Assembly (NCBI GenBank): GCA_016841745.1
Contig: JAENYO010000005.1
Span: forward strand, 84,439 to 148,438
DNA from: Acetomicrobium hydrogeniformans
GTDB taxonomy: Bacteria > Synergistota > Synergistia > Synergistales > JAFGMB01
Reading direction: 5' to 3'
Length of the DNA: 64,000 bases
Position numbers and translations under genes: made by a program. Below, one piece after another: positions 16,799-28,878 of the stretch (the stretch's first letter is position 1; every line of letters begins with the position of its first letter). The notes below the pieces were generated by a model. The model was not told the origin of the DNA. It saw only the letters and a list, made by a program, of their open reading frames with translations, and ran no database searches.

Positions 16799-16826
16799 GC
16801 TGTCAGATGATCTGAAGAAACAAAGG

Positions 16827-16902
16827 GGAGGCAATTACATAAAATATGTAATTGCCTCCGATGTATTCTCTCCTGATCCTTAAGGATCAGGAGATCGTTT
16901 TT
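16827..16902. terminator. Double hairpin between convergent hom and livF
   Basis: First hairpin: a perfect 15-bp stem GGAGGCAATTACATA with its complement and a three-base loop (16827-16859). Second: CTCCTGATCC, TTAA, GGATCAGGAG (16870-16893), then ATCGTTTTT on the plus strand. The second overlaps the livF stop codon. It probably terminates hom and may also act on the opposing transcript. Confidence 0.8.
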
Positions 16903-17603
16903 CCCAGATAGGCTTCCTGGACAACGCTACTCTGTAAAAGTTCTTCGGCGCTTCCCTGGAGGACAACATTCCCTCTTTCAAGGACATATCCCCGATGAGC
17001 AACAGATAATGCTATCTCTGCGTTCTGTTCCACGAGAAGGATGGAAATTCCCTGCCTGTTGATGCTGATTATATTATCGAATACTTCGTCCACGATCACC
17101 GGAGCCAGGCCCATGGATGGCTCGTCAAGGAGCAACAGGCTCGGGCGACTCATAAGCCCCCTGGCCATAACAAGCATCTGCTGCTCTCCCCCCGACAGTG
17201 TTCCCGCTACCTGTTTTATTCTTTCTTTCAAACGGGGAAACAGGGAAAAAGCCCTATCCATATCTTCTTCAATTTCAGACCTTTTTTTTCTGGTATATGC
17301 CCCCATTACAAGATTTTCCATAACAGTAAGATCCGAAAAGACATGGCGCCCTTCTGGAACATGGCCAATACCTGATTCCACTATTCTATGTGCAGGTACA
17401 GAAGTGATCTCCTGATCTTTGAAGATAATGCTGCCCGAATGGATAGGGATAATATTCGAGATGGCAGATAATGTACTGGTTTTTCCTGCACCGTTCGCCC
17501 CGAGTAGAGTAACTATCTCCCCGGCTTCAATGTTGAAAGAAATCCCCTGAACCGCATGGATCACGCCATAATACACATTCAGGTCTTTAACTTTGAATAA
17601 CAT
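16887..17603 (-). CDS. livF: Branched-chain amino acid ABC transporter ATP-binding protein LivF
   Basis: Protein of 238 residues. An ABC ATPase with Walker A GANGAGKTS, signature LSGGEQQM and Walker B LLLLDEPSMGLAP; the sequence pattern (LNVYYGVIHAVQGISF, EIALSVAHRGYVLERG) is that of LivF rather than LivG. It forms the cytoplasmic motor with LivG, driving uptake of leucine, isoleucine and valine (or related substrates). It overlaps livG by 17 bp and is the last gene of the panB-ilvE-liv unit. Confidence 0.95.
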   Translation of the reverse strand: MLFKVKDLNVYYGVIHAVQGISFNIEAGEIVTLLGANGAGKTSTLSAISNIIPIHSGSIIFKDQEITSVPAHRIVESGIGHVPEGRHVFSDLTVMENLVMGAYTRKKRSEIEEDMDRAFSLFPRLKERIKQVAGTLSGGEQQMLVMARGLMSRPSLLLLDEPSMGLAPVIVDEVFDNIISINRQGISILLVEQNAEIALSVAHRGYVLERGNVVLQGSAEELLQSSVVQEAYLGKTIS

Positions 17604-18372
17604 GGCTTGATCTCCGTTTTCCTAAATATGCCTCAATTACATTGGGGTCGCTCTGAACATGATCAGGAGATCCCCGGGAAATGATCTTTCCGAAATTCAT
17701 TACTGCGATTCTTTCGCTTAAATTCATTACCAGACCCATTTGATGTTCGATCAATAATATACCAAGAGAAAAATGATCTCTGGAAAATCGGATCAATTCA
17801 ACAAGAGAATGAATTTCTCCAAGGGTCATCCCTGCGGCAGGCTCATCCAGAAGAAGTATCTTTGGTTTGATGGCAAGAGCACGTGCAATTTCAAGTCTTC
17901 GCTGCTGACCATAAGGAAGATTCCCTGCCAGTTCATCAGCGCGACCTTCCAGTCCGAACAGTTCAAGCATATGAAAGACCTTTTCACGGATAAGTTTTTC
18001 CCCTTTTTTGAAGCTGCTATTTCGGATAACCGCGTCCAGGGAGCTGTAATCTGCTAAGCGATGAAAAGCTATTTCCAGATTTCGAAATACGGTCAGATCT
18101 TTAAAGAGTCTTATATTCTGGAAGGTCCTTGCTATGCCCTTTTCAGCTATCCAACTTGTTTTCTGCCCCAGGAGATCTTCTCCATCGAGCACAACTCTTC
18201 CTTTAGAAGGGGGATATATCCCTGTAATTATATTAAAAACAGTTGTTTTACCAGCACCATTGGGACCTATCAAAGCAACTATCTCTCCCGCATCAACATC
18301 CAGGGAAAAATCGCTTACTGCAGTCAGACCTCCAAATTGTATGCTTATATCACTTATCTTCAATAAACTCAA
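17587..18372 (-). CDS. livG: Branched-chain amino acid ABC transporter ATP-binding protein LivG
   Basis: Protein of 261 residues. Walker A GPNGAGKTTVFNIITG, signature LPYGQQRRLEIARALA and Walker B LLLDEPAAGM are typical of LivG, including the characteristic Tyr-Gly-Gln-Gln in place of Ser-Gly-Gly in the signature. It pairs with LivF as the heterodimeric ATPase. The start is 2 bp from the livM stop and the end overlaps livF. Confidence 0.95.
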   Translation of the reverse strand: MSLLKISDISIQFGGLTAVSDFSLDVDAGEIVALIGPNGAGKTTVFNIITGIYPPSKGRVVLDGEDLLGQKTSWIAEKGIARTFQNIRLFKDLTVFRNLEIAFHRLADYSSLDAVIRNSSFKKGEKLIREKVFHMLELFGLEGRADELAGNLPYGQQRRLEIARALAIKPKILLLDEPAAGMTLGEIHSLVELIRFSRDHFSLGILLIEHQMGLVMNLSERIAVMNFGKIISRGSPDHVQSDPNVIEAYLGKRRSSHVIQS

Positions 18373-18373
18373 T

Positions 18374-19351
18374 TTATTCCCCTCCCGCTCTGGTGCGCCA
18401 CAGGGAAAAGCGTCTTTGTAAATACTTCAATGGGTCCCGGCTGATGAAGACGATCAATAAGAGAGGATAAAGGATCAGCCGAAGATCCTGGGAAAACCTT
18501 AATATTTCCGGAAGGACTGTAAGGCCGATTCCCGCAATTACGGACCCGACGATACTTCCCATACCTCCAACAACAACCATAAGGAGAATCTCTATTGACT
18601 TTATAAAGGTATATTGGGTGGGATGGGCCAGCTGGATCAGATGCACAAGCATACCTCCAGCGAGAGCCGCAAAAAAACAGCCGATAACAAGGGCGTGAAG
18701 CTTGACTTTCAAGCTGTCGATACCCAGCGATTCTGCCGCTATTTCATCTCCAAGGATGGCTTCACAGTTCCGCCCCCTTGAAGAATGTATATATCTGCTT
18801 ATGAAGACAACACTTATCCATGCAAGGAAAAGAAGAGTCCAGAGATTGCTGAGTTTTGGTATTCCATAAAATCCCCTTGGACCTCCAATAAAATCCATAT
18901 TGTTCAAAACCACTACTACTATCTGGTTGAAACCCAGGGTTGCAATACAAAGGTAATCACCGGTAAGACGCAGGATTATCAAACCTAAAAAATAAGCAAT
19001 TACGGCAGCAACAAGGGCTCCAATCAGTAGACTCAATATAAATAAAACAGTGCCTGAAAAAAAACCGGCTCCTGGTTTAAGATGGAATACCACTTTAGTC
19101 AGGTAGGCAGAAATATAGGCACCTACTGCCATAAAGCCTGCATGTCCAAGAGAAAACTGACCGGTTATGCCCGTTATCAGGTTCAGGCTGAGGGTAAGGA
19201 TCACATTACATAACCCTACCATTAAAACAAACATGATATATGGCGAAACCACCTGAAATCTGTCTAAAAAGATCAATATGAGGGTTAGTATAAAGGCGCT
19301 CACTGGCCATTTATATTTTGCAAGAAATTGATAATTGAGGGTTGAATCCAT
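18374..19351 (-). CDS. livM: Branched-chain amino acid ABC transporter permease LivM
   Basis: Protein of 325 residues with about nine hydrophobic segments. The conserved LivM signatures LSLNLITGITGQFSLGHAGF and AAVIAYFLGLIILRLTGDYL are present. A coupling-helix EAA-like region (RGRNCEAILGDEIAAESLGI) contacts the ATPases. It is an inner-membrane half of the permease with LivH, with 2 bp between its start and the livH stop. Confidence 0.95.
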   Translation of the reverse strand: MDSTLNYQFLAKYKWPVSAFILTLILIFLDRFQVVSPYIMFVLMVGLCNVILTLSLNLITGITGQFSLGHAGFMAVGAYISAYLTKVVFHLKPGAGFFSGTVLFILSLLIGALVAAVIAYFLGLIILRLTGDYLCIATLGFNQIVVVVLNNMDFIGGPRGFYGIPKLSNLWTLLFLAWISVVFISRYIHSSRGRNCEAILGDEIAAESLGIDSLKVKLHALVIGCFFAALAGGMLVHLIQLAHPTQYTFIKSIEILLMVVVGGMGSIVGSVIAGIGLTVLPEILRFSQDLRLILYPLLLIVFISRDPLKYLQRRFSLWRTRAGGE

Positions 19352-19353
19352 CT

Positions 19354-20235
19354 TTACACCTTCTCTCTCGTTGTCTTGCCAAAAAGACCAAAAGGTCTTA
19401 TCAGCAGTACAACCAGCAACAGAAGGAAAAAGACTCCCTCGGCCATCTGTGAATTAACAGCCGTAGCAGCCGTTTCTATGATTCCCATAAGCATTCCCCC
19501 TACCATGGCTCCGGGAATACTTCCAATTCCTCCAAAAACCGCAGCAATAAATGCCTTTAACCCGGGCATGATTCCCATATAGGGGCTTAAGCGTGGGTAA
19601 GTTATTGCAGTGAGCACCCCCGCGGCACCTGCCAGGGCTCCCCCAAGGGCAAATGTGGCTGAGATGACCCTCTCTACATTTACCCCCATGAGTTTTGCCC
19701 CTTTGGGATCAAGAGATACTGCCCGCATGGCAATACCAAGTTTTGTTTTTTTGATAATGAACCACAGCATGAGCATCAGGCTGATCGCCATTACCAGATT
19801 TATGATCTGAATGTTTGTAATAATAATGTTTTCAGTCAATGAAAAATTTTTTACATTTATTACATCTGGAAACCGCCTGAAACTCGGACCAATGAATGGG
19901 AGAGCCCTGCATCCATTTTCCAGAAGTAAAGAAACACCCATTGCGGTGATCAATGCCTTTAATCTGGGCTGGGACCTAAGGGGTTTATATGCAACTTTAT
20001 CCATGATAATAGCTCCCAGGGCCCCTGTAGCCATGGACGCCACAAAAGCAAGGGGCAAAGGAACATGTAAGTTAACAAGAAAATATGCTACATATGCGGA
20101 GATCATCAAAAGATCACCATGAGCAAAATTTATAAGTTTAAGAATTCCATAGACCATTGTGTATCCCAATGCCATGAGGGCATAAATGGCACCAAGCTGT
20201 ATACCGTTGATAAGCTGAATAATGACTAATTCCAT
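19354..20235 (-). CDS. livH: Branched-chain amino acid ABC transporter permease LivH
   Basis: Protein of 293 residues, polytopic. Markers: QLINGIQLGAIYALMALGYT at the N-terminus, then VYGILKLINFAHGDLLMI and the coupling loop GIAMRAVSLDPKGAKLMGVN. The ATG at 20235 is used because LivH proteins start close to the QLINGIQ motif; the open frame reaches a TTG at 20256. It forms the permease with LivM and follows livJ after a gap containing two hairpins. Confidence 0.93.
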   Translation of the reverse strand: MELVIIQLINGIQLGAIYALMALGYTMVYGILKLINFAHGDLLMISAYVAYFLVNLHVPLPLAFVASMATGALGAIIMDKVAYKPLRSQPRLKALITAMGVSLLLENGCRALPFIGPSFRRFPDVINVKNFSLTENIIITNIQIINLVMAISLMLMLWFIIKKTKLGIAMRAVSLDPKGAKLMGVNVERVISATFALGGALAGAAGVLTAITYPRLSPYMGIMPGLKAFIAAVFGGIGSIPGAMVGGMLMGIIETAATAVNSQMAEGVFFLLLLVVLLIRPFGLFGKTTREKV

Positions 20236-20258
20236 ATGACAAAGCACCATCCTCAAAA

Positions 20259-20359
20259 CCAGGGATCCTGTTTAAGTCCTGGGGAGACAAGTTCAAAAGG
20301 ATCCCTGGATTATTTAATAAATAACCCTTTCCTCATATCCTGAAGGATACAGGGAAAGG
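20259..20359 (-). terminator. Two hairpins in the livJ-livH gap, probable partial terminator or mRNA stabiliser
   Basis: The outer structure pairs CCAGGGATCC (20259-20268) with GGATCCCTGG (20299-20308). The second, just after the livJ stop (20325-20359), pairs CCTTTCCT with AGGGAAAGG around an ATCCT/AGGAT core. This is the usual position for a hairpin that keeps binding-protein mRNA more abundant than permease mRNA. No strong T run is present. Confidence 0.5.
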
Positions 20360-20369
20360 AAGCAACATC

Positions 20370-21503
20370 TTACTGGATAGGCTGGTAACTTTTCATATAA
20401 TTAATTTTGCCGTCTTTGACAACAAGAATAGCAGCCGGCAGGGTCGTGGGATCTCCATTTTCATCAAGGGTAATATCACCCTGGGCGGCTTTTAATCCAT
20501 TCGTTTTTGCGATAGCATCTGCAACTGCTTCCCGATCTTCTTTGCCTGCTGAACGGATACCGTCAATAACCATTAATGCAGCATCATAACCCATAATGGC
20601 TAACAGATCAGGTTCTGCGTTATATTTCTTTTTATATTCATCAACAAAGAATCTGGTCTCAGTACGTGGATCTTCTTTTGAGAAATGGCTGCAGTAATAG
20701 GCTCCATCCAATGATGCCAGATCGAGTTCAGGAGAATCCCAGCCGTCAGAACCTACAAAAACAGCCTCAATACCAAGGTCTTTTGCCTGTCTGGCAATAA
20801 GGTTGGCATCATTGTAGAAATCTGAGAAAAAGAAAACATCAGGTTTTTTTGATTTGATGATGCTTAACTGGGCCCTGAAATCCACTGCCTGGGATGGGTG
20901 GGTCTGAACCGTAATCACAGTTCCTCCCTCGGCTTCAAAGGTCTTGATAAAAACTTCGGCAACACTCTTGGCGTAATCATTTCCAAGGTCATAAAGAACT
21001 GCGGCTGTTTTAGCGGATAATTCGTTTATACAGAATCTTCCCATTACCACTCCCTGAAAATCATCGGTCCAACAGCTTCTTGATACAAAATGTTTATCAG
21101 GAGTAATTGCCGGATTCGTTCCTGTTACAACTGTGGGAACCCCGGCATCCTCCACTATGGAAGAGACTGCCATACCGATAGTGCTCGGAATGGGGCCGAT
21201 AATTGCCAGCACATTGTCCTGTCCGATCAGTTTGAGGGCCGCGCTTGCTCCTGTCACAGGATCTCCCTGGTCGTCCTCATTAAGAAGCCTGATCTGCTTA
21301 CCCAGAACTCCGCCATTCATGTTTGCCTGTTCAACAGCCAGTTCAACACCGTTTCTATGACTCTCTCCATAAGTCGATAAAGGTCCGGTAAGGCACGCAA
21401 TGTTCCCTATTTTGATCACATCATTGGACGCCCACGTGGCACCTGCAGCAAAAATGATCATAAGACTCACCGCAAAAAACATAAAAACTCTCTTACCCTT
21501 CAT
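20370..21503 (-). CDS. livJ: Branched-chain amino acid ABC transporter substrate-binding protein
   Basis: Protein of 377 residues from the ATG at 21503 (AGGAG eight bases upstream; a GTG three codons earlier is possible). A signal peptide covers about 1-26, ending in ATWA. The Leu/Ile/Val-binding fold (Peripla_BP_6) shows KIGNIACLTGPLSTYG, GVELAVEQANMNGGVLG and VLAIIGPIPSTIGMAV. It delivers branched-chain amino acids or a similar ligand to LivHMGF. It lies downstream of ilvE. Confidence 0.93.
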   Translation of the reverse strand: MKGKRVFMFFAVSLMIIFAAGATWASNDVIKIGNIACLTGPLSTYGESHRNGVELAVEQANMNGGVLGKQIRLLNEDDQGDPVTGASAALKLIGQDNVLAIIGPIPSTIGMAVSSIVEDAGVPTVVTGTNPAITPDKHFVSRSCWTDDFQGVVMGRFCINELSAKTAAVLYDLGNDYAKSVAEVFIKTFEAEGGTVITVQTHPSQAVDFRAQLSIIKSKKPDVFFFSDFYNDANLIARQAKDLGIEAVFVGSDGWDSPELDLASLDGAYYCSHFSKEDPRTETRFFVDEYKKKYNAEPDLLAIMGYDAALMVIDGIRSAGKEDREAVADAIAKTNGLKAAQGDITLDENGDPTTLPAAILVVKDGKINYMKSYQPIQ

Positions 21504-21637
21504 TCTGTTCACTCCTCTTATTTTTAATTAATTTGGCATCACATCGTTTGCTATTTCATTTAAGATCATTCATGTCCCTTTCAATAACAGGAAAAGGGAG
21601 CTTATTTCAGGCTGATCTCATCATCAGAAAGAATTAT

Positions 21638-22513
21638 TTAATATACAGGAGTTCCTTCCTTGTGGATCAGGATCTTGAAACATTCGATCAGGGAAGAGGT
21701 TATGGGACCGGCAGTTGAATCGCCAATTTTTCTTCCATCAACCATTCTTACGTGACATATCTCTGCTCCTGTTCCGCAGACAAAGGCTTCGTCACAGGTA
21801 TATACATCTCCCAGAGTAAGATCTTTTTCACAGGTCGGTATCTCCAGTTCCCGGGCCATATCAATTACTGTCTGGCGGGTTATTCCATGGAGGATATTAG
21901 TTCTCCGGGGAGAATAGAGCACTCCATTTTTAACCATAAGGAAGTTCTCTCCCGGTCCCTCTGCAACAAAACCCTGGACATCAAGAAGCAGTGCTTCGTC
22001 ACAACCCGAAGCTGTGGCTTCCTGTTTTGCCATAATACCGTTAACATATGTGCCCACACATTTGGCTCTGGAATCAAAACAGGCGGGGGGAAATTTCCTT
22101 ACAGCAGAAGTCTTCATAGTAATTCCTGATTCTCCGAGGAAGGGCTTCCATGGATGAGCAAACACTATCACAGTAGGCTTATAGTCGGGATCAGGTCCGA
22201 CTCCCAGTCCCATGCCACGGGTAATGATGGGTCTTATATGGGCATCTCTCAGGCTGTTTTCACGAAGGGTCTCTAAAACGATTTCTTTGAATTCATCTTT
22301 TGTCAATGGAATCTTTATTCCCAGGATTCTGGCTGAATCAAAAAGCCTGACTATATGCTCATCCAGCTTGAAAACTTTTCCATCGTATTCTCTGATCCCT
22401 TCAAAAACAGCATCTCCATAGAGGAGTCCCCTATCAAAAGGGGAGATACCCGGCTCTTCAGCAGGAACAAATTTCCCGTTGATATAAACCTTTAATCCTG
22501 ATAAATCGATCAT
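21638..22513 (-). CDS. ilvE: Branched-chain amino acid aminotransferase
   Basis: Protein of 291 residues, a class-IV PLP aminotransferase. Motifs include GLLYGDAVFEGIREY, the lysine region VNGIMAKQEATASGCDEALL with the Schiff-base Lys in MAKQEA, and EGPGENFLMVKNG. It interconverts valine, leucine and isoleucine with their 2-oxo acids. The ATG at 22513 has GGGAGGA eight bases upstream. Placement between panB and livJ ties it to 2-oxoisovalerate, which is both the valine precursor and the PanB substrate. Confidence 0.93.
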   Translation of the reverse strand: MIDLSGLKVYINGKFVPAEEPGISPFDRGLLYGDAVFEGIREYDGKVFKLDEHIVRLFDSARILGIKIPLTKDEFKEIVLETLRENSLRDAHIRPIITRGMGLGVGPDPDYKPTVIVFAHPWKPFLGESGITMKTSAVRKFPPACFDSRAKCVGTYVNGIMAKQEATASGCDEALLLDVQGFVAEGPGENFLMVKNGVLYSPRRTNILHGITRQTVIDMARELEIPTCEKDLTLGDVYTCDEAFVCGTGAEICHVRMVDGRKIGDSTAGPITSSLIECFKILIHKEGTPVY

Positions 22514-22602
22514 CCTTGCATTCCTCCCTGTTTTAAAACTTTGCATCCATTAAAAAGATATCATCCTGATAATGAATGTCCTATACACTTTGCTTTACAG
22601 GT

Positions 22603-23439
22603 TTAACTCAATTTTGAAATTTCTTCAATATCTTCTTTGCTGATCCCTGAAAATACATGTTCTTCTGAAGGGAACTGTTCTTGTTTAACTTCCTCATTAA
22701 AATCTTGAAGAGCCTGTACTATTTCTTCTCCGATCTGTTTATACTGCTTTACAAACCTGGGTACGAACTTGTCAAAAAGCCCGAGCATGTCATGAAAAAC
22801 AAGAACCTGTCCATCGCAATACCGACCCGCCCCTATTCCTATGATCGGGATAGATACAGCTTCAGAGACTGCCCTTCCCAATTCTTCCGGAACACATTCC
22901 AGAACAATAGAAAAGGCCCCCGCATCCTCAAGAGATTTAGCCTCATCAAGAAGTTTCTTCGCAGATTCCAGACTTTTCCCCTGTACTTTGAATCCTCCAA
23001 GTAAGGAAGCTGTCTGAGGAGTAAGACCTATATGACCCTGAACGGGAATACCGGCATCCACTATTGCTCTTACTACCTCCGGCCTTCCTCCTTCCAGTTT
23101 AATGGCATCACATCCTCCTTCTTTCATCAGGCGGTTGGCATTGGAAATAGCCTGGGATATGCTTTCGTTATAGGAGCCGAAGACCATATCTCCAATTATC
23201 ATGGGAGATGGTGCTCCTTTTACTACCGGGCGGATATGATGGATCATTTCGTCAGTAGTAAGAGAAACTGTCCCTTCATTCCCTAACATAGTCATTGACA
23301 GGGAATCACCTACAAGGATAACCTCGATCCCGGCTTTCTCGACAAGAACAGCCTGAGAATAATCATAAGCTGTAATCATTGATATTTTTTCTCCTGATTC
23401 CTTCATTTTCCTCATCTGCTGAATAGTAAATTTTGCCAT
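22603..23439 (-). CDS. panB: 3-methyl-2-oxobutanoate hydroxymethyltransferase
   Basis: Protein of 278 residues. PanB adds a hydroxymethyl group from 5,10-methylene-tetrahydrofolate to 2-oxoisovalerate, giving ketopantoate, the first committed step to pantothenate and CoA. Conserved stretches are ITAYDYSQAVLVEKAGIEVI, LVGDSLSMTMLGNEGT (metal Asp), MIIGDMVFGSY and VQGHIGLTPQ; IVLECVPEELG carries the catalytic Glu. AAAGGAG precedes the ATG. It is the first enzyme gene after the valine-rich leader and attenuator. Confidence 0.96.
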   Translation of the reverse strand: MAKFTIQQMRKMKESGEKISMITAYDYSQAVLVEKAGIEVILVGDSLSMTMLGNEGTVSLTTDEMIHHIRPVVKGAPSPMIIGDMVFGSYNESISQAISNANRLMKEGGCDAIKLEGGRPEVVRAIVDAGIPVQGHIGLTPQTASLLGGFKVQGKSLESAKKLLDEAKSLEDAGAFSIVLECVPEELGRAVSEAVSIPIIGIGAGRYCDGQVLVFHDMLGLFDKFVPRFVKQYKQIGEEIVQALQDFNEEVKQEQFPSEEHVFSGISKEDIEEISKLS

Positions 23440-23468
23440 TCCACCAAAACTCCTTTCTACTTTTCAAT

Positions 23469-23503
23469 AAAAAAAGGCCGGAACCCATTTTCGGGTCCCG
23501 GCC
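23469..23503 (-). terminator. Attenuator terminator ahead of panB
   Basis: On the minus strand: GGCCGGGACCC, a six-base loop, GGGTTCCGGCC, then TTTTTTT. It lies 20 bp after the leader-peptide stop and 30 bp before panB. A segment inside the leader (23549-23554, GGGTCC) can pair with the GGACCC of the 5' arm (23493-23498), offering a short alternative structure. Confidence 0.88.
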
Positions 23504-23522
23504 TGAAGGTTGCGGCTAAAGG

Positions 23523-23624
23523 TTAAACGCCAACATCCACTCCAGGAAGGACCCTGCAGCTTAGGACATCGACTACGACAACAACATCAAAAGATACTCT
23601 TTTTGTAACACGAGAATGTTTCAC
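23523..23624 (-). CDS. Valine-rich leader peptide of the panB-ilvE-liv operon
   Basis: A 33-codon frame starts at GTG 23624 with a very strong ribosome site (GGGAGGG, seven bases upstream) and ends at TAA 23523. The peptide has 12 valines, including five in a row at residues 14-18 and another at 20 (VVVVVDV), plus two leucines. It lies between a promoter and a terminator that precedes panB. This is the classic layout of amino-acid attenuation: slow translation of the Val codons when charged tRNA-Val is scarce would expose an antiterminator. The peptide itself is unlikely to have another function. Attenuation is inferred, not shown. Confidence 0.85.
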   Translation of the reverse strand: MKHSRVTKRVSFDVVVVVDVLSCRVLPGVDVGV

Positions 23625-23671
23625 CGGGCTTCCCTCCCTTTTACGAATGCTGAAAACATGAATTGCTGGTC

Positions 23672-23700
23672 ATTCTATAGAAGATCGGCAAAAAGGTCAA
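23672..23700 (-). promoter_or_regulatory. Promoter of the panB-ilvE-liv operon
   Basis: Minus-strand TTGACC, 17 bp, TAGAAT; each box is one base off consensus. The predicted start near 23665 is about 40 bases before the leader-peptide GTG. Confidence 0.8.
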
Positions 23701-23842
23701 CTCTTTTTCAGAATTTTCATGAAAGATCTTGAAAAAATCTGCAAAACATTCTTAAAAACACCTTTTCCTCCACATCTTAAGAGCTATATCCAACTCTTCA
23801 AGAAATTCCGCAGATTCTGCAATAAACGGAGGATAGGGATAT

Positions 23843-25459: not shown

Positions 25460-26035
25460 CTAAAATTGACTGTCTTTCAGTTCTGCATGGCGGAAGCAGA
25501 CTGTTATATGATCATTTACCATCCCCACGGCCTGCATGAAAGAGTAGACTATGGTGGGCCCCACAAAGTTGAAACCCTGTTTTTTGAGGTCTTTGCTTAT
25601 CCTTTCACCCAGGGAAGTGTAGGGCGGCAGTTCTGAAACGTTTTCCCACGAATTCTGGATGGGAGTCCCGTCCACAAAATTCCATATATAGGCGTTGAAA
25701 CTACCGTACTTTTCCTGTACTTCGAGAAACTGCCCGGCGTTCCTGACGGCCGACTCCAGCTTTCTTCGATTGCGGATTATGCCTTTGTTGTCAAGAAGCT
25801 GGCCGATCTTTTTTTCATCATATCTGGCCACTATGCGGGGATCAAAGTTATCAAAGGCCTCCCTGTAGGCCTCCCTCTTTCTCAGAATGGTGATCCAGCT
25901 CAGACCTGCCTGGGCTCCTTCAAGAACAAGAAATTCAAAAAGGGTCCTGTCATCATGGACCGGGACACCCCATTCCTCATCATGGTAAGCCACATAAAGG
26001 GGGTCAGTTCCGGCCCAGTCGCAACGAGTCAGCAC
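25460..26035 (-). CDS. tag: DNA-3-methyladenine glycosylase I
   Basis: Protein of 191 residues. It excises 3-methyladenine from alkylated DNA. The zinc site is visible as Cys5 (LTRCDW), His18 (VAYHDEEWGVP) and the C-terminal pair in NDHITVCFRH. The catalytic region has LVLEGAQAGLSWITILRKR, including the conserved Glu. The GTG start at 26035 shares one base with the stop of the upstream ketopantoate-reductase-like gene, so tag ends a translationally coupled four-gene operon with three oxidoreductases, an odd partner for a repair enzyme. Confidence 0.95.
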   Translation of the reverse strand: MLTRCDWAGTDPLYVAYHDEEWGVPVHDDRTLFEFLVLEGAQAGLSWITILRKREAYREAFDNFDPRIVARYDEKKIGQLLDNKGIIRNRRKLESAVRNAGQFLEVQEKYGSFNAYIWNFVDGTPIQNSWENVSELPPYTSLGERISKDLKKQGFNFVGPTIVYSFMQAVGMVNDHITVCFRHAELKDSQF

Positions 26036-26952
26036 TAGTCGAAACCCCGGCTTGTATCAATGGCTTTTAGAAGGGCATACAGAGTTCTTGTGCAGGGAAA
26101 ATCACTGTCATCCACGGCGTATTGCAGAACCCCTCCAGGTATACTATCAACTTCCATTTTCCTGCCTGCCAGGTTATCCTGAAGCATGGAAGGAATATTG
26201 GTAGCAGTTTTGCGGATATTTTCCATAAAAATGGGCCAGAGTTCATCCAGATCGATAACGAAACCTGCCCTTCGGGCGGCTTCAACTGCTTCTTTGCCTA
26301 TCTCTTTCATAAGTTTAACAAGAAGAGGGCTGGCCAGGAGACCTTCGTTATCCAGGCCTGTAAGGGCAGCCGTCGTATTTACCATTGAATTGACAATGAG
26401 CTTTTTCCAGATGAAGATCCTCGGATCATCTACATAAGCAACATTGAAACAGGCTTTCTCAAGAACACCCGCCACCCATTCCATGCTGACGCCTTTTTTC
26501 CACGGACCAATGACAATAGACGCTCCACCAGCCTCCTGAACCACACCGGGTGATCGTTTGATGGCCCCATAATGGGCTACACCCACCCCTGTTTTTTCTT
26601 CTCCAAATATTGAAGAAAGGATTTCGGCATTACCAAGTCCGTTCTGAAGGGTAAGTATCACTCCATCTTCTTCCAGGATGGCCTTAACCGGCGCCACTTC
26701 TTCTGTACTGAAGGACTTAACCAGAACTATTATCAGTTTCGAGGGCTTTAGTTCCCTGACATCGCTGGATAGGGCAAGAAGGTTGTATATTCTGGAGGAA
26801 CTCCTGTCCTCGGACTCAATTGTGAGTCCCTTTTTCAATGCATCAAAGGTTTCGCCCTTTCTCTGGAATGCCTGAACCTGGAACCCGGCATCCATAAGTT
26901 TAGAGGCGAAGATGCTTCCGAGGGCTCCGCACCCTGCTATTGTAACTATCAG
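26035..26952 (-). CDS. Ketopantoate reductase-family protein, tandem copy 1
   Basis: About 305 residues in the PanE/ApbA family, which reduces 2-dehydropantoate with NADPH. It has the N-terminal VTIAGCGALGSIFASKLMDA, the catalytic-Lys region FIWKKLIVNSMVNTTAALTG and the C-terminal SMLQDNLAGRKMEVDSIPGG with the substrate Glu. The open frame extends to an ATG at 27078, but that part lies inside copy 2. Alignment with the paralogues and the SD GGGAGAGG point to a start near 26952, where the codon is CTG. It is coupled to tag downstream. Which of the three copies makes pantoate cannot be told. Confidence 0.85.
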   Translation of the reverse strand: MIVTIAGCGALGSIFASKLMDAGFQVQAFQRKGETFDALKKGLTIESEDRSSSRIYNLLALSSDVRELKPSKLIIVLVKSFSTEEVAPVKAILEEDGVILTLQNGLGNAEILSSIFGEEKTGVGVAHYGAIKRSPGVVQEAGGASIVIGPWKKGVSMEWVAGVLEKACFNVAYVDDPRIFIWKKLIVNSMVNTTAALTGLDNEGLLASPLLVKLMKEIGKEAVEAARRAGFVIDLDELWPIFMENIRKTATNIPSMLQDNLAGRKMEVDSIPGGVLQYAVDDSDFPCTRTLYALLKAIDTSRGFD

Positions 26953-26989
26953 GATTACCTCTCCCTTCTGCGAAAACTCAAATTTTCTA

Positions 26990-27931
26990 TCATGTATTTT
27001 TGTCTTCTCCTGCGGGATTTTGATCAATTGACCGGATAAGGGAATATAGGGTTCTCGTATAGGGAAACTCTGCCCCATTCCTTGAAAGCTTCAGGATTTC
27101 ACCTGCTATGCTTTCTATCTCAGTCTTTCTCCTCTTTTCAACATCCTCCAGCATTGACGAACGATTCCGGGTTGTCATTTTCATGGTTGCCTTAACCATT
27201 TTCCAGAGTTCTTCTTCATCAAGGACAATGCCCTTGCGCTCCGCAGCCATACGGGTTTCTTCACATATCTTCCGCATCATTGCAAGGACGGGCTCAGTTT
27301 TGAGAAGTTCTCCATTTTTCAGCCTGGTCAATGCTGTTATGGTATTTATGGTGGCATTGACGGCAACCTTTTTCCAGAGAAAAGGCCTGGGATCAGAAAC
27401 ACAACTTACGTTAAGACCAGCTTCTTTGAGGAGATCACACACCCAGCCCATATCCATGGCCTTCTTCCATGGTCCGGAATAGATATGGCCATCTCCTCCC
27501 CAGCCGATCACTCCGGGAGAGATTCGAAAGGCCGCATAATTGGTTATTCCTGCCGCTACTTTTTTTTCTCCGAAACCCTTTACAAGGGTTTCGGCATTAC
27601 CCAATCCGTTCTGGAGAGTAAGAACAACGCCGTCTTCTTCAAGAACCTCTCTTACAGGAAAGATCTGCCCTGTATCATAGGATTTCACCAGAACCAGTAC
27701 CAGTCGTGTCTTTTCAAGATCTGAAGGGTCATCAGATATTCTCTTTAAAGAAAAGGTCCTGGTGCTTCCGTCTTTATCTCCATTTATGGTGATACCTCTG
27801 TCTCTGAGGATATCAAAGTGGGAACCCCTTCTCTGGAAGGCCTGGACTTCAAGGCCTCCTTCTATCATTCTGGCTGCAAGGAGACTTCCAAGGGCACCGC
27901 AGCCCGCTATGGTAACTAACATAGGCTTCAC
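26990..27931 (-). CDS. Ketopantoate reductase-family protein, tandem copy 2
   Basis: Protein of 313 residues. NADPH-binding VTIAGCGALGSLLAARMIEG, catalytic region FLWKKVAVNATINTITALT, and SMLEDVEKRRKTEIESIAGE near the C-terminus. It has the full set of family residues, so it should be an active reductase of ketopantoate or a related 2-oxo acid. Compared with copies 1 and 3, its active-site strand SGVRQ-equivalent reads SRNRSSM and its NAD loop differs, suggesting some substrate divergence (inference). It lies 20 bp after copy 3. Confidence 0.9.
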   Translation of the reverse strand: MKPMLVTIAGCGALGSLLAARMIEGGLEVQAFQRRGSHFDILRDRGITINGDKDGSTRTFSLKRISDDPSDLEKTRLVLVLVKSYDTGQIFPVREVLEEDGVVLTLQNGLGNAETLVKGFGEKKVAAGITNYAAFRISPGVIGWGGDGHIYSGPWKKAMDMGWVCDLLKEAGLNVSCVSDPRPFLWKKVAVNATINTITALTRLKNGELLKTEPVLAMMRKICEETRMAAERKGIVLDEEELWKMVKATMKMTTRNRSSMLEDVEKRRKTEIESIAGEILKLSRNGAEFPYTRTLYSLIRSIDQNPAGEDKNT

Positions 27932-27951
27932 TCCTCAGGAGAAGGTCTGAG

Positions 27952-28878
27952 CTAGATGTTTCCCCTACTCAGATCAATGGCTTTAAGCAGGGAGTACATG
28001 GTCCTGATACATGGAAAATCATTTTCATCCCGTCCATATTTCAGGATCTCCCCTGCAATACTGTCTATTTCCATTTTCCTTCCAGCTTCCATATCCTGAA
28101 GCATGGAAGGTTTGTGATCAGGTGCCTTTTTCAGATTTTCCATGAAAAAAGTCCACATCTGGTCAAGTTCCAGATCTACACCTGCTCTTTTTGCCGCCTT
28201 GACTGCCTCTGAACCTATTCTTTTCATGAGTTCCAGAGAAAGATCGCTTTTATAGATCTCTCGGGGAGACATGCGGGTGAGGGCAAATGTGGGATTTGCC
28301 ATTACATTCATTACCAGTTTCTTCCATATAAGAGGTCTGGGATCCTCGACGTAATCGATCCGAAGGCCTGCATTTTTGAGAACCCCGGCTATCCAGGTCA
28401 TATCTGTTTTTCCGGACTTCGACCAGGGACCGAAGGTTATGGCTCCCTTAAGCCCCTCCTTAACCACTCCAGGAGACATACTTACCCCTCCATAGGTGGT
28501 TATTCCAGCTGCTACTTGTTCTTCTCCGAAGATATCTGAAAGTTTTTCGGCATTTCCAAGTCCATTCTGGATGGTCAGGACAACTCCGTCAAAATCCAGT
28601 ATCTCCTTGAGCGGAAAGATATCCGAAGTGCTGTAGGATTTCACGAGAACAAGGATCAGCTTTGATGGAGACAGTTTCCATGCTTTATCCGAAACTGCGG
28701 CAAGAGGGAAAGTTATCCCCTCCATATTCTCTTCGGACACAAGGGTAATTCCCTTATATTTCAGTACTTCCAGGGTTTTACCTTTCCGCTGCAGGACCTG
28801 TACCTGTAATCCCCCTCCGATCATATGGGCCGCCAGAAGACCTCCAAGGGCACCACAGCCCGCTATGGTAATCAGCAT
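27952..28878 (-). CDS. Ketopantoate reductase-family protein, tandem copy 3
   Basis: Protein of 308 residues, first of the operon. MLITIAGCGALGGLLAAHMI at the N-terminus, IWKKLVMNVMANPTFALT at the catalytic Lys, and PSMLQDMEAGRKMEIDSIAG at the C-terminal Glu motif. The three copies share gene length, motifs and spacing and clearly arose by tandem duplication. With panB 4 kb away, at least one may supply pantoate. Confidence 0.9.
   Translation of the reverse strand: MLITIAGCGALGGLLAAHMIGGGLQVQVLQRKGKTLEVLKYKGITLVSEENMEGITFPLAAVSDKAWKLSPSKLILVLVKSYSTSDIFPLKEILDFDGVVLTIQNGLGNAEKLSDIFGEEQVAAGITTYGGVSMSPGVVKEGLKGAITFGPWSKSGKTDMTWIAGVLKNAGLRIDYVEDPRPLIWKKLVMNVMANPTFALTRMSPREIYKSDLSLELMKRIGSEAVKAAKRAGVDLELDQMWTFFMENLKKAPDHKPSMLQDMEAGRKMEIDSIAGEILKYGRDENDFPCIRTMYSLLKAIDLSRGNI

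Follow-up and report, generated by a model that had tools for sequence, protein, structure and literature searches.

Upstream of panB in the window (the whole stretch of 64,000 nucleotides of Acetomicrobium hydrogeniformans DNA analysed here) lies an element that we read, with a probability of about 0.87, as a ribosome-mediated transcription attenuator sensing charged tRNA-Val and as a member of a homologous, phylum-wide family in which a constant RNA chassis is combined with an exchangeable codon run. This reading draws on what is visible in the sequences themselves, i.e., the elements of the leader, two covarying structures, the homology of the family, the agreement between codon run and downstream gene, and the placement of the run. 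We also consider it likely, with somewhat less assurance, that the Synergistota govern their amino-acid metabolism largely via one ancestral attenuator RNA, which would have duplicated and relocated, its run being rewritten for Val, Ile, Leu, Phe/Tyr/Trp, Met(/Cys), Thr and perhaps Ala.

The valine leader and its alternative structures

All features of the element are on the minus strand. A sigma-70-like promoter, TTGACC-17-TAGAAT (23672-23700), matches the consensus at 10 of 12 positions and is the top-scoring promoter site on this strand within the range 16800-23720; no other promoter-like site was found on the minus strand between the terminator and panB. Downstream of the promoter, a strong ribosome site, GGGAGGG, precedes the GTG start of a predicted leader frame (23523-23624), which has homologous leaders elsewhere and encodes MKHSRVTKRVSFDVVVVVDVLSCRVLPGVDVGV; 12 of its 33 residues are Val, including five encoded in succession by GTT GTT GTC GTA GTC (23571-23585). 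Five-Val runs are rare in the host genome, and GTNGTNGTNGTNGT has just three other sites in its 3.04 Mb (two overlapping matches being taken as one). The fold energy of the leader RNA is 2.8 sd below that of dinucleotide shuffles.

The leader can adopt two mutually exclusive structures. One is an intrinsic terminator, the attenuator proper, formed by a hairpin and a T run (23469-23504; the hairpin itself at 23504-23475), with a 12-bp stem, a 6-nt loop and an energy of about -25 to -25.6 kcal/mol, 30 nt upstream of panB. The other, supported by folding and by covariation, is an antiterminator of 13 pairs in two helices with an inner hairpin (total -29.5 kcal/mol, by folding). In helix 1, GGGTCC (23549-23554) is exactly complementary to GGACCC (23493-23498), which lies within the 5' arm of the terminator; in helix 2, CCTGGAG (23540-23546) pairs with CTTCAGG (23502-23508), which overlaps the start of the terminator. 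The inner hairpin encloses the stop codon of the leader. Folding also gives a protector-type hairpin, GTCGATGTCC...GGATGTTGGC, with a short inner stem GCTGCAGG/CCTGGAGT (23529-23573; the inner stem is 86.8% paired, n = 20 sequences). Its 5' side falls within the end of the Val run and pairs with GGATGTTGGC, and in this it resembles the 1:2 hairpin of classical attenuators.

A first-pass annotation of this DNA had described part of this layout. Its promoter and its 33-codon frame, with a strong ribosome site, 12 Val residues and a five-Val run, are borne out by the minus-strand reading (23700-23672 and 23624-23523). The strong terminator with a T run is also present, but its stem has 12 bp and not the 11 bp claimed; likewise, the short GGGTCC/GGACCC antiterminator had been recognized as an exact complement, but the structure is larger, its second helix and inner hairpin having been missed.

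Transcription would start near 23665, with the leader translated behind RNA polymerase. When Val-tRNA is ample, the ribosome would pass the Val run and reach the stop codon inside the antiterminator, where it would cover the antiterminator 5' strands; the terminator would then form, and transcription would stop after some 195 nt. Under a shortage of Val-tRNA, the ribosome would stall in the run; its front edge, roughly 12 nt beyond the A site, would leave the arm GGGTCC-TT-CCTGGAG free to pair with CTTCAGG-CCG-GGACCC before the 3' arm of the terminator is synthesised, and polymerase would continue into panB-ilvE-livJHMGF. We infer that termination, stalling and the direction of the response follow this scheme in vivo. 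The minimum-energy fold with the ribosome stalled still prefers the terminator (-44.0 kcal/mol vs -29.5 kcal/mol for the antiterminator alone). Switching by thermodynamics alone was therefore rejected, because a stalled ribosome does not tip the equilibrium away from the terminator; a kinetic mechanism of the classical kind, decided by the order of synthesis, is needed.

A family of leaders with exchangeable codon runs

A blastn search with the leader DNA detected leaders homologous to it in 23 of the 188 Synergistota genomes, the host genome included. Nearly all of those inspected have a hydrophobic codon run, a terminator and a peptide tail like SCGSLPGVxVG, which is encoded by the 5' strand of the antiterminator. 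A covariance model built from 20 homologous leaders (R1) has matches in 113 of the 188 genomes, with 14 copies in the host, and a broader model (R2) places 15 copies in the host. R1 found no match in 50 genomes fetched as non-Synergistota, a small sample searched with strict filters; these genomes were reached via panB loci from other taxa and carry their names as deposited. The whole conserved chassis of the window (23469-23567) scores 84.5 bits with R1 and 74.8 bits with R2 (E 6e-15); the window was in the training set of both models and these scores are not independent, whereas the plain blastn finding of homologous leaders is. The window element shares with the family both the chassis, by R1, R2 and blastn, and the enclosed stop codon. 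In an Rfam scan of the window stretch and of the leaders in 20 family loci nothing scored above its gathering score, and a match to SdsR_RyeB in the window (22.5 bits vs a gathering score of 38) was dismissed as due to chance. A T-box riboswitch was likewise rejected, there being no RF00230 match in the same stretch and leaders.

Both structures covary across the family. In an alignment of 105 sequences fitted to the covariance model, 11 of the 13 antiterminator pairs show double changes; double-change cells number 122 vs 30.8 +/- 7.8 after shuffling, and the covariation score is 0.367 vs at most 0.117 for slid partners. Independent of that fit are a MAFFT alignment (n = 20), in which the terminator is 99.5% paired with three double-change pairs, and an arm-swap test, in which cognate duplexes average -25.8 vs -20.8 kcal/mol for swapped ones and are the stronger in 81% of swaps (Wilcoxon p about 2e-20, indicative only, related sequences not being independent). 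Family counts throughout take related sequences as independent.

The position of the run relative to the antiterminator arm also fits a stalling ribosome. In the window, the Val run starts 31 nt ahead of the arm, and its fifth codon 19 nt ahead. In a set of 100 leaders, the share of cognate residues is 94-95% at 3-4 codons upstream of the arm, 63-87% at 5-10 codons and at most 4% at 0-2 codons, the sharp fall at 0-2 being due in part to codons fixed by the RNA stem itself. A ribosome with its A site on codons 3-10 upstream would end just before the arm, in keeping with the logic of its footprint. At the other end of the leader, in 134 of 135 cases, the stop codon is enclosed by eight or more antiterminator pairs, so that a finishing ribosome must disrupt the antiterminator. 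Nearly all family copies have a ribosome-binding site and frame. The leader frame is open in 124 of 125 cases (vs 29 and 46 in the other frames), a count that we do not take as evidence because the leaders were selected by open frame. The window element shows the features of attenuators in general: a leader frame with its ribosome site, a cognate run, exclusive structures and a run placed at the appropriate distance.

Leaders and their downstream genes were tabulated for 138 copies and then for 41 further matches, including a few repeats. In the host genome, besides the Val run ahead of panB-ilvE-liv, IIIIAIII precedes an ACT-domain protein gene and ilvC, LLGLL precedes leuC, MFGMGTMTT precedes hom-lysC-thrC, and FFFSFFF precedes genes for a cyclohexadienyl dehydratase (pheC; match to PDB 8cq4, E 1e-64) and a DAHP synthase and a gene read as aroA. 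In relatives, LLLL runs are found before leuA, MMMCM before metN/metQ, VTTTTTMTT before hom, RFFF or FFEYYYA before paaK, IIII before a threonine-dehydratase-like gene and AAAAAM before an aminotransferase-linked operon. Across the family, I/V/L runs stand before ilv genes and M runs before met genes. The run agrees with the amino-acid group of the downstream gene in 86 of 87 distinct leaders, the sole mismatch being a leader upstream of lysC in which Thr and Met tie. The downstream genes were assigned here by their homology to annotated references; the matching statistic is 64.4, and the highest value among 20,000 label shuffles is 0.3.

Several individual copies were also recorded. An Ile-rich leader occurs twice in tandem before the ACT-domain gene and ilvC (G000:C8:513413-513516 and 513653-513756; L143:2414-2757); the T run of the second copy reads as N, and the arrangement may represent either a genuine tandem attenuator or an artefact of an assembly gap. 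One permease family, the L188 member of which gave no Pfam or NCBIfam match, carries family leaders with differing runs, Ile, Phe/Trp/Tyr, Tyr-rich and Met (L188:2022-3428, L148:3697-5052, L310:457-1841 and L313:2392-3838), a hydrolase gene coming next in several cases; the differing runs may predict differing substrates. AAAAM runs before an aminotransferase gene (L322:662-2191, and L270:2236-3625, there after an unannotated gene) suggest an alanine-sensing version. Finally, YYFYYWF or FYFYFWF runs (L302:624-728, i.e., G000:C14:72523; L316:669-2260; L339:2122-3774; L191:4190-4291) stand, in two genomes, directly before a sodium/solute symporter-like gene; the copy at G000:C14:72523, in the host genome, has no clear gene directly downstream.

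The panB operon and rival readings

The genes that the attenuator would control are all on the minus strand: panB, for 3-methyl-2-oxobutanoate hydroxymethyltransferase (22603-23439; TIGR00222, 320.8 bits); ilvE, for a branched-chain aminotransferase (21638-22546; TIGR01122, 305.8 bits); a gene for a livJ-like substrate-binding protein (20370-21512; best model NF011933, below its cut-off); and livH, livM, livG and livF (16887-20256), named from position and resemblance. We found no strong terminator between panB and livF, and a 15-bp hairpin 3' of livF (16827-16859) is the probable end of the operon, which would extend this far. Upstream of it, also on the minus strand, are three tandem paralogs resembling ketopantoate reductase (panE; window 26035-28878).

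The first-pass annotation had proposed conservation of the leader upstream of panB in relatives as a test, and this test fails: the closest panB orthologs (65-80% identity) all lack a Val leader immediately upstream. A conserved, panB-specific valine attenuator is rejected on the same ground; as related panB genes do not have the leader, control of panB by it would be lineage-specific. The panB-ilvE-livJ order is common to one other genome (L012), the contig of which has no covariance-model match and no Val leader before these genes. The host genome has three panB genes; the paralogs at G000:C12:13715-14509 and C8:80513-81319 (L002 and L003; 47% and 44-45% identity) are without Val leaders. 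In the genus designated g4 (e.g., G003, G012 and G036), the listed genomes are without the attenuator and several are also without panB, which suggests a joint loss. To judge from these comparisons, conservation resides in the RNA element, placed before different operons in different genomes. Valine control of panB would be physiologically odd, as more PanB under valine shortage would drain ketoisovalerate, the valine precursor; valine control of ilvE and of liv uptake would make ready sense, and panB may come under it simply as the gene that opens an ilvE-liv unit. The earlier proposal of a valine-leader attenuator thus draws strong comparative support from the covarying stems, the enclosed stop codon and the gene-matched runs, but not from conservation at panB; and the leader that it recognized before panB is real, but belongs to a set of 14-15 related leaders in the host genome, with other amino-acid specificities among them, which had been overlooked.

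The missing Val leaders before related panB genes, together with the rarity of five-Val runs in the host genome, are what would be expected of an isolated, lineage-specific, ivbL-like leader that arose on its own before panB. We regard such an origin as very unlikely, because the sequence, the structure and the C-terminal codons are homologous to those of leaders that stand elsewhere in this genome and in the phylum before ilvN, ilvC, leuA and further genes. The same conservation and covariation of the RNA chassis could instead point to a small-molecule riboswitch or a protein-binding element in which the reading frame is incidental; this is highly improbable, given that a ribosome-binding site and frame come with nearly every copy, that the runs (F, M, T, L, V) vary by gene on a constant chassis and sit at ribosome-footprint distance, and that no Rfam riboswitch or T-box matches.

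It is less probable still that the hairpin is the ordinary terminator of an upstream transcript, with panB driven by another promoter. A strong terminator 30 nt upstream of the gene could serve such a purpose, but a promoter and a leader immediately precede this one, the interval between it and panB has no further promoter-like site on this strand, and the conserved alternative pairing would stay unexplained. PPG is a slow, EF-P-dependent motif, and many leaders of the family have the C-terminal SCGS(P/L)PG motif; the leader could in principle encode an arrest peptide, its conserved SCGxPPG tail, and not the codon run, pausing the ribosome on the antiterminator arm. Of the readings considered, we give this one the least credence: the motif is encoded by the 5' strand of the antiterminator and varies with it (SCRVLPGV, SVGPPLGT, RRSHPGS), and a peptide-only mechanism would have no need of gene-matched codon runs. 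Attenuation through charged tRNA-Val, within a family of homologous leaders, is the reading that we retain.

Comparison with known attenuation systems

The usual view is that leader-peptide attenuators arise independently, operon by operon. In enterobacteria, the leaders of ivbL/ilvB and ilvGMEDA combine a short peptide having Val/Ile/Leu runs with mutually exclusive antiterminator and terminator structures ahead of branched-chain genes, and the Synergistota element resembles them in all of these respects. The ivbL/ilv-type layout claimed by the first-pass annotation holds for this logic only, as no Rfam leader family matches; the Synergistota element differs, moreover, in that one homologous chassis serves many amino acids and, in the window, in that the stop codon lies inside the antiterminator and the operon begins with panB.

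Leader attenuators for single amino acids have been described in Proteobacteria, Actinobacteria and Firmicutes (PMC1262725; PMC2965389; PMC9413887; PMC10272879), and a survey of attenuators from 2010 argued for convergence between phyla (PMC2965389). The ilvBNC leader, or ilvB-II motif, of Corynebacterium is a conserved upstream ORF with an attenuator before ilvB in one genus (PMC10272879; PMC11857589); unlike the Synergistota element, which has no match in Rfam scans, it is described only before the ilv operon. The His-leader attenuators of Firmicutes, with the hisS/hisZ leaders, provide a case outside Proteobacteria of paralogous copies before two genes (PMC9413887; PMC2965389), but they concern a single amino acid, in few copies, and form no cross-amino-acid family. 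A survey of intergenic regions that included Thermovirga lienii (Synergistota) reported an S-layer riboswitch candidate, uORF candidates and mostly unnamed regions (PMC6429828); it is the sole earlier survey of intergenic RNA motifs in Synergistota that we found, and its main text does not describe the family. The Synergistota family is previously unlisted: it is absent from Rfam, and no paper describing it, or any multi-amino-acid attenuator family, was found in the open-access literature, a report that we have not seen being possible.

A single homologous RNA appears to serve six or more amino-acid groups and to pass from one operon to another, which would make the evolution of attenuator specificity directly traceable. 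For this phylum of amino-acid fermenters, which has been little studied, it would also supply a ready-made regulon, and replacing the codon run alone would be a way to probe the specificity of the chassis; if the reading is correct, the run could predict the substrates of uncharacterised downstream transporters and enzymes. A parallel is the T-box, in which one conserved scaffold is likewise reused before many amino-acid genes and codon identity sets the specificity. The T-box, however, binds uncharged tRNA via its specifier loop, whereas the Synergistota family uses a translated codon run and would thus be the translation-based counterpart of the T-box.
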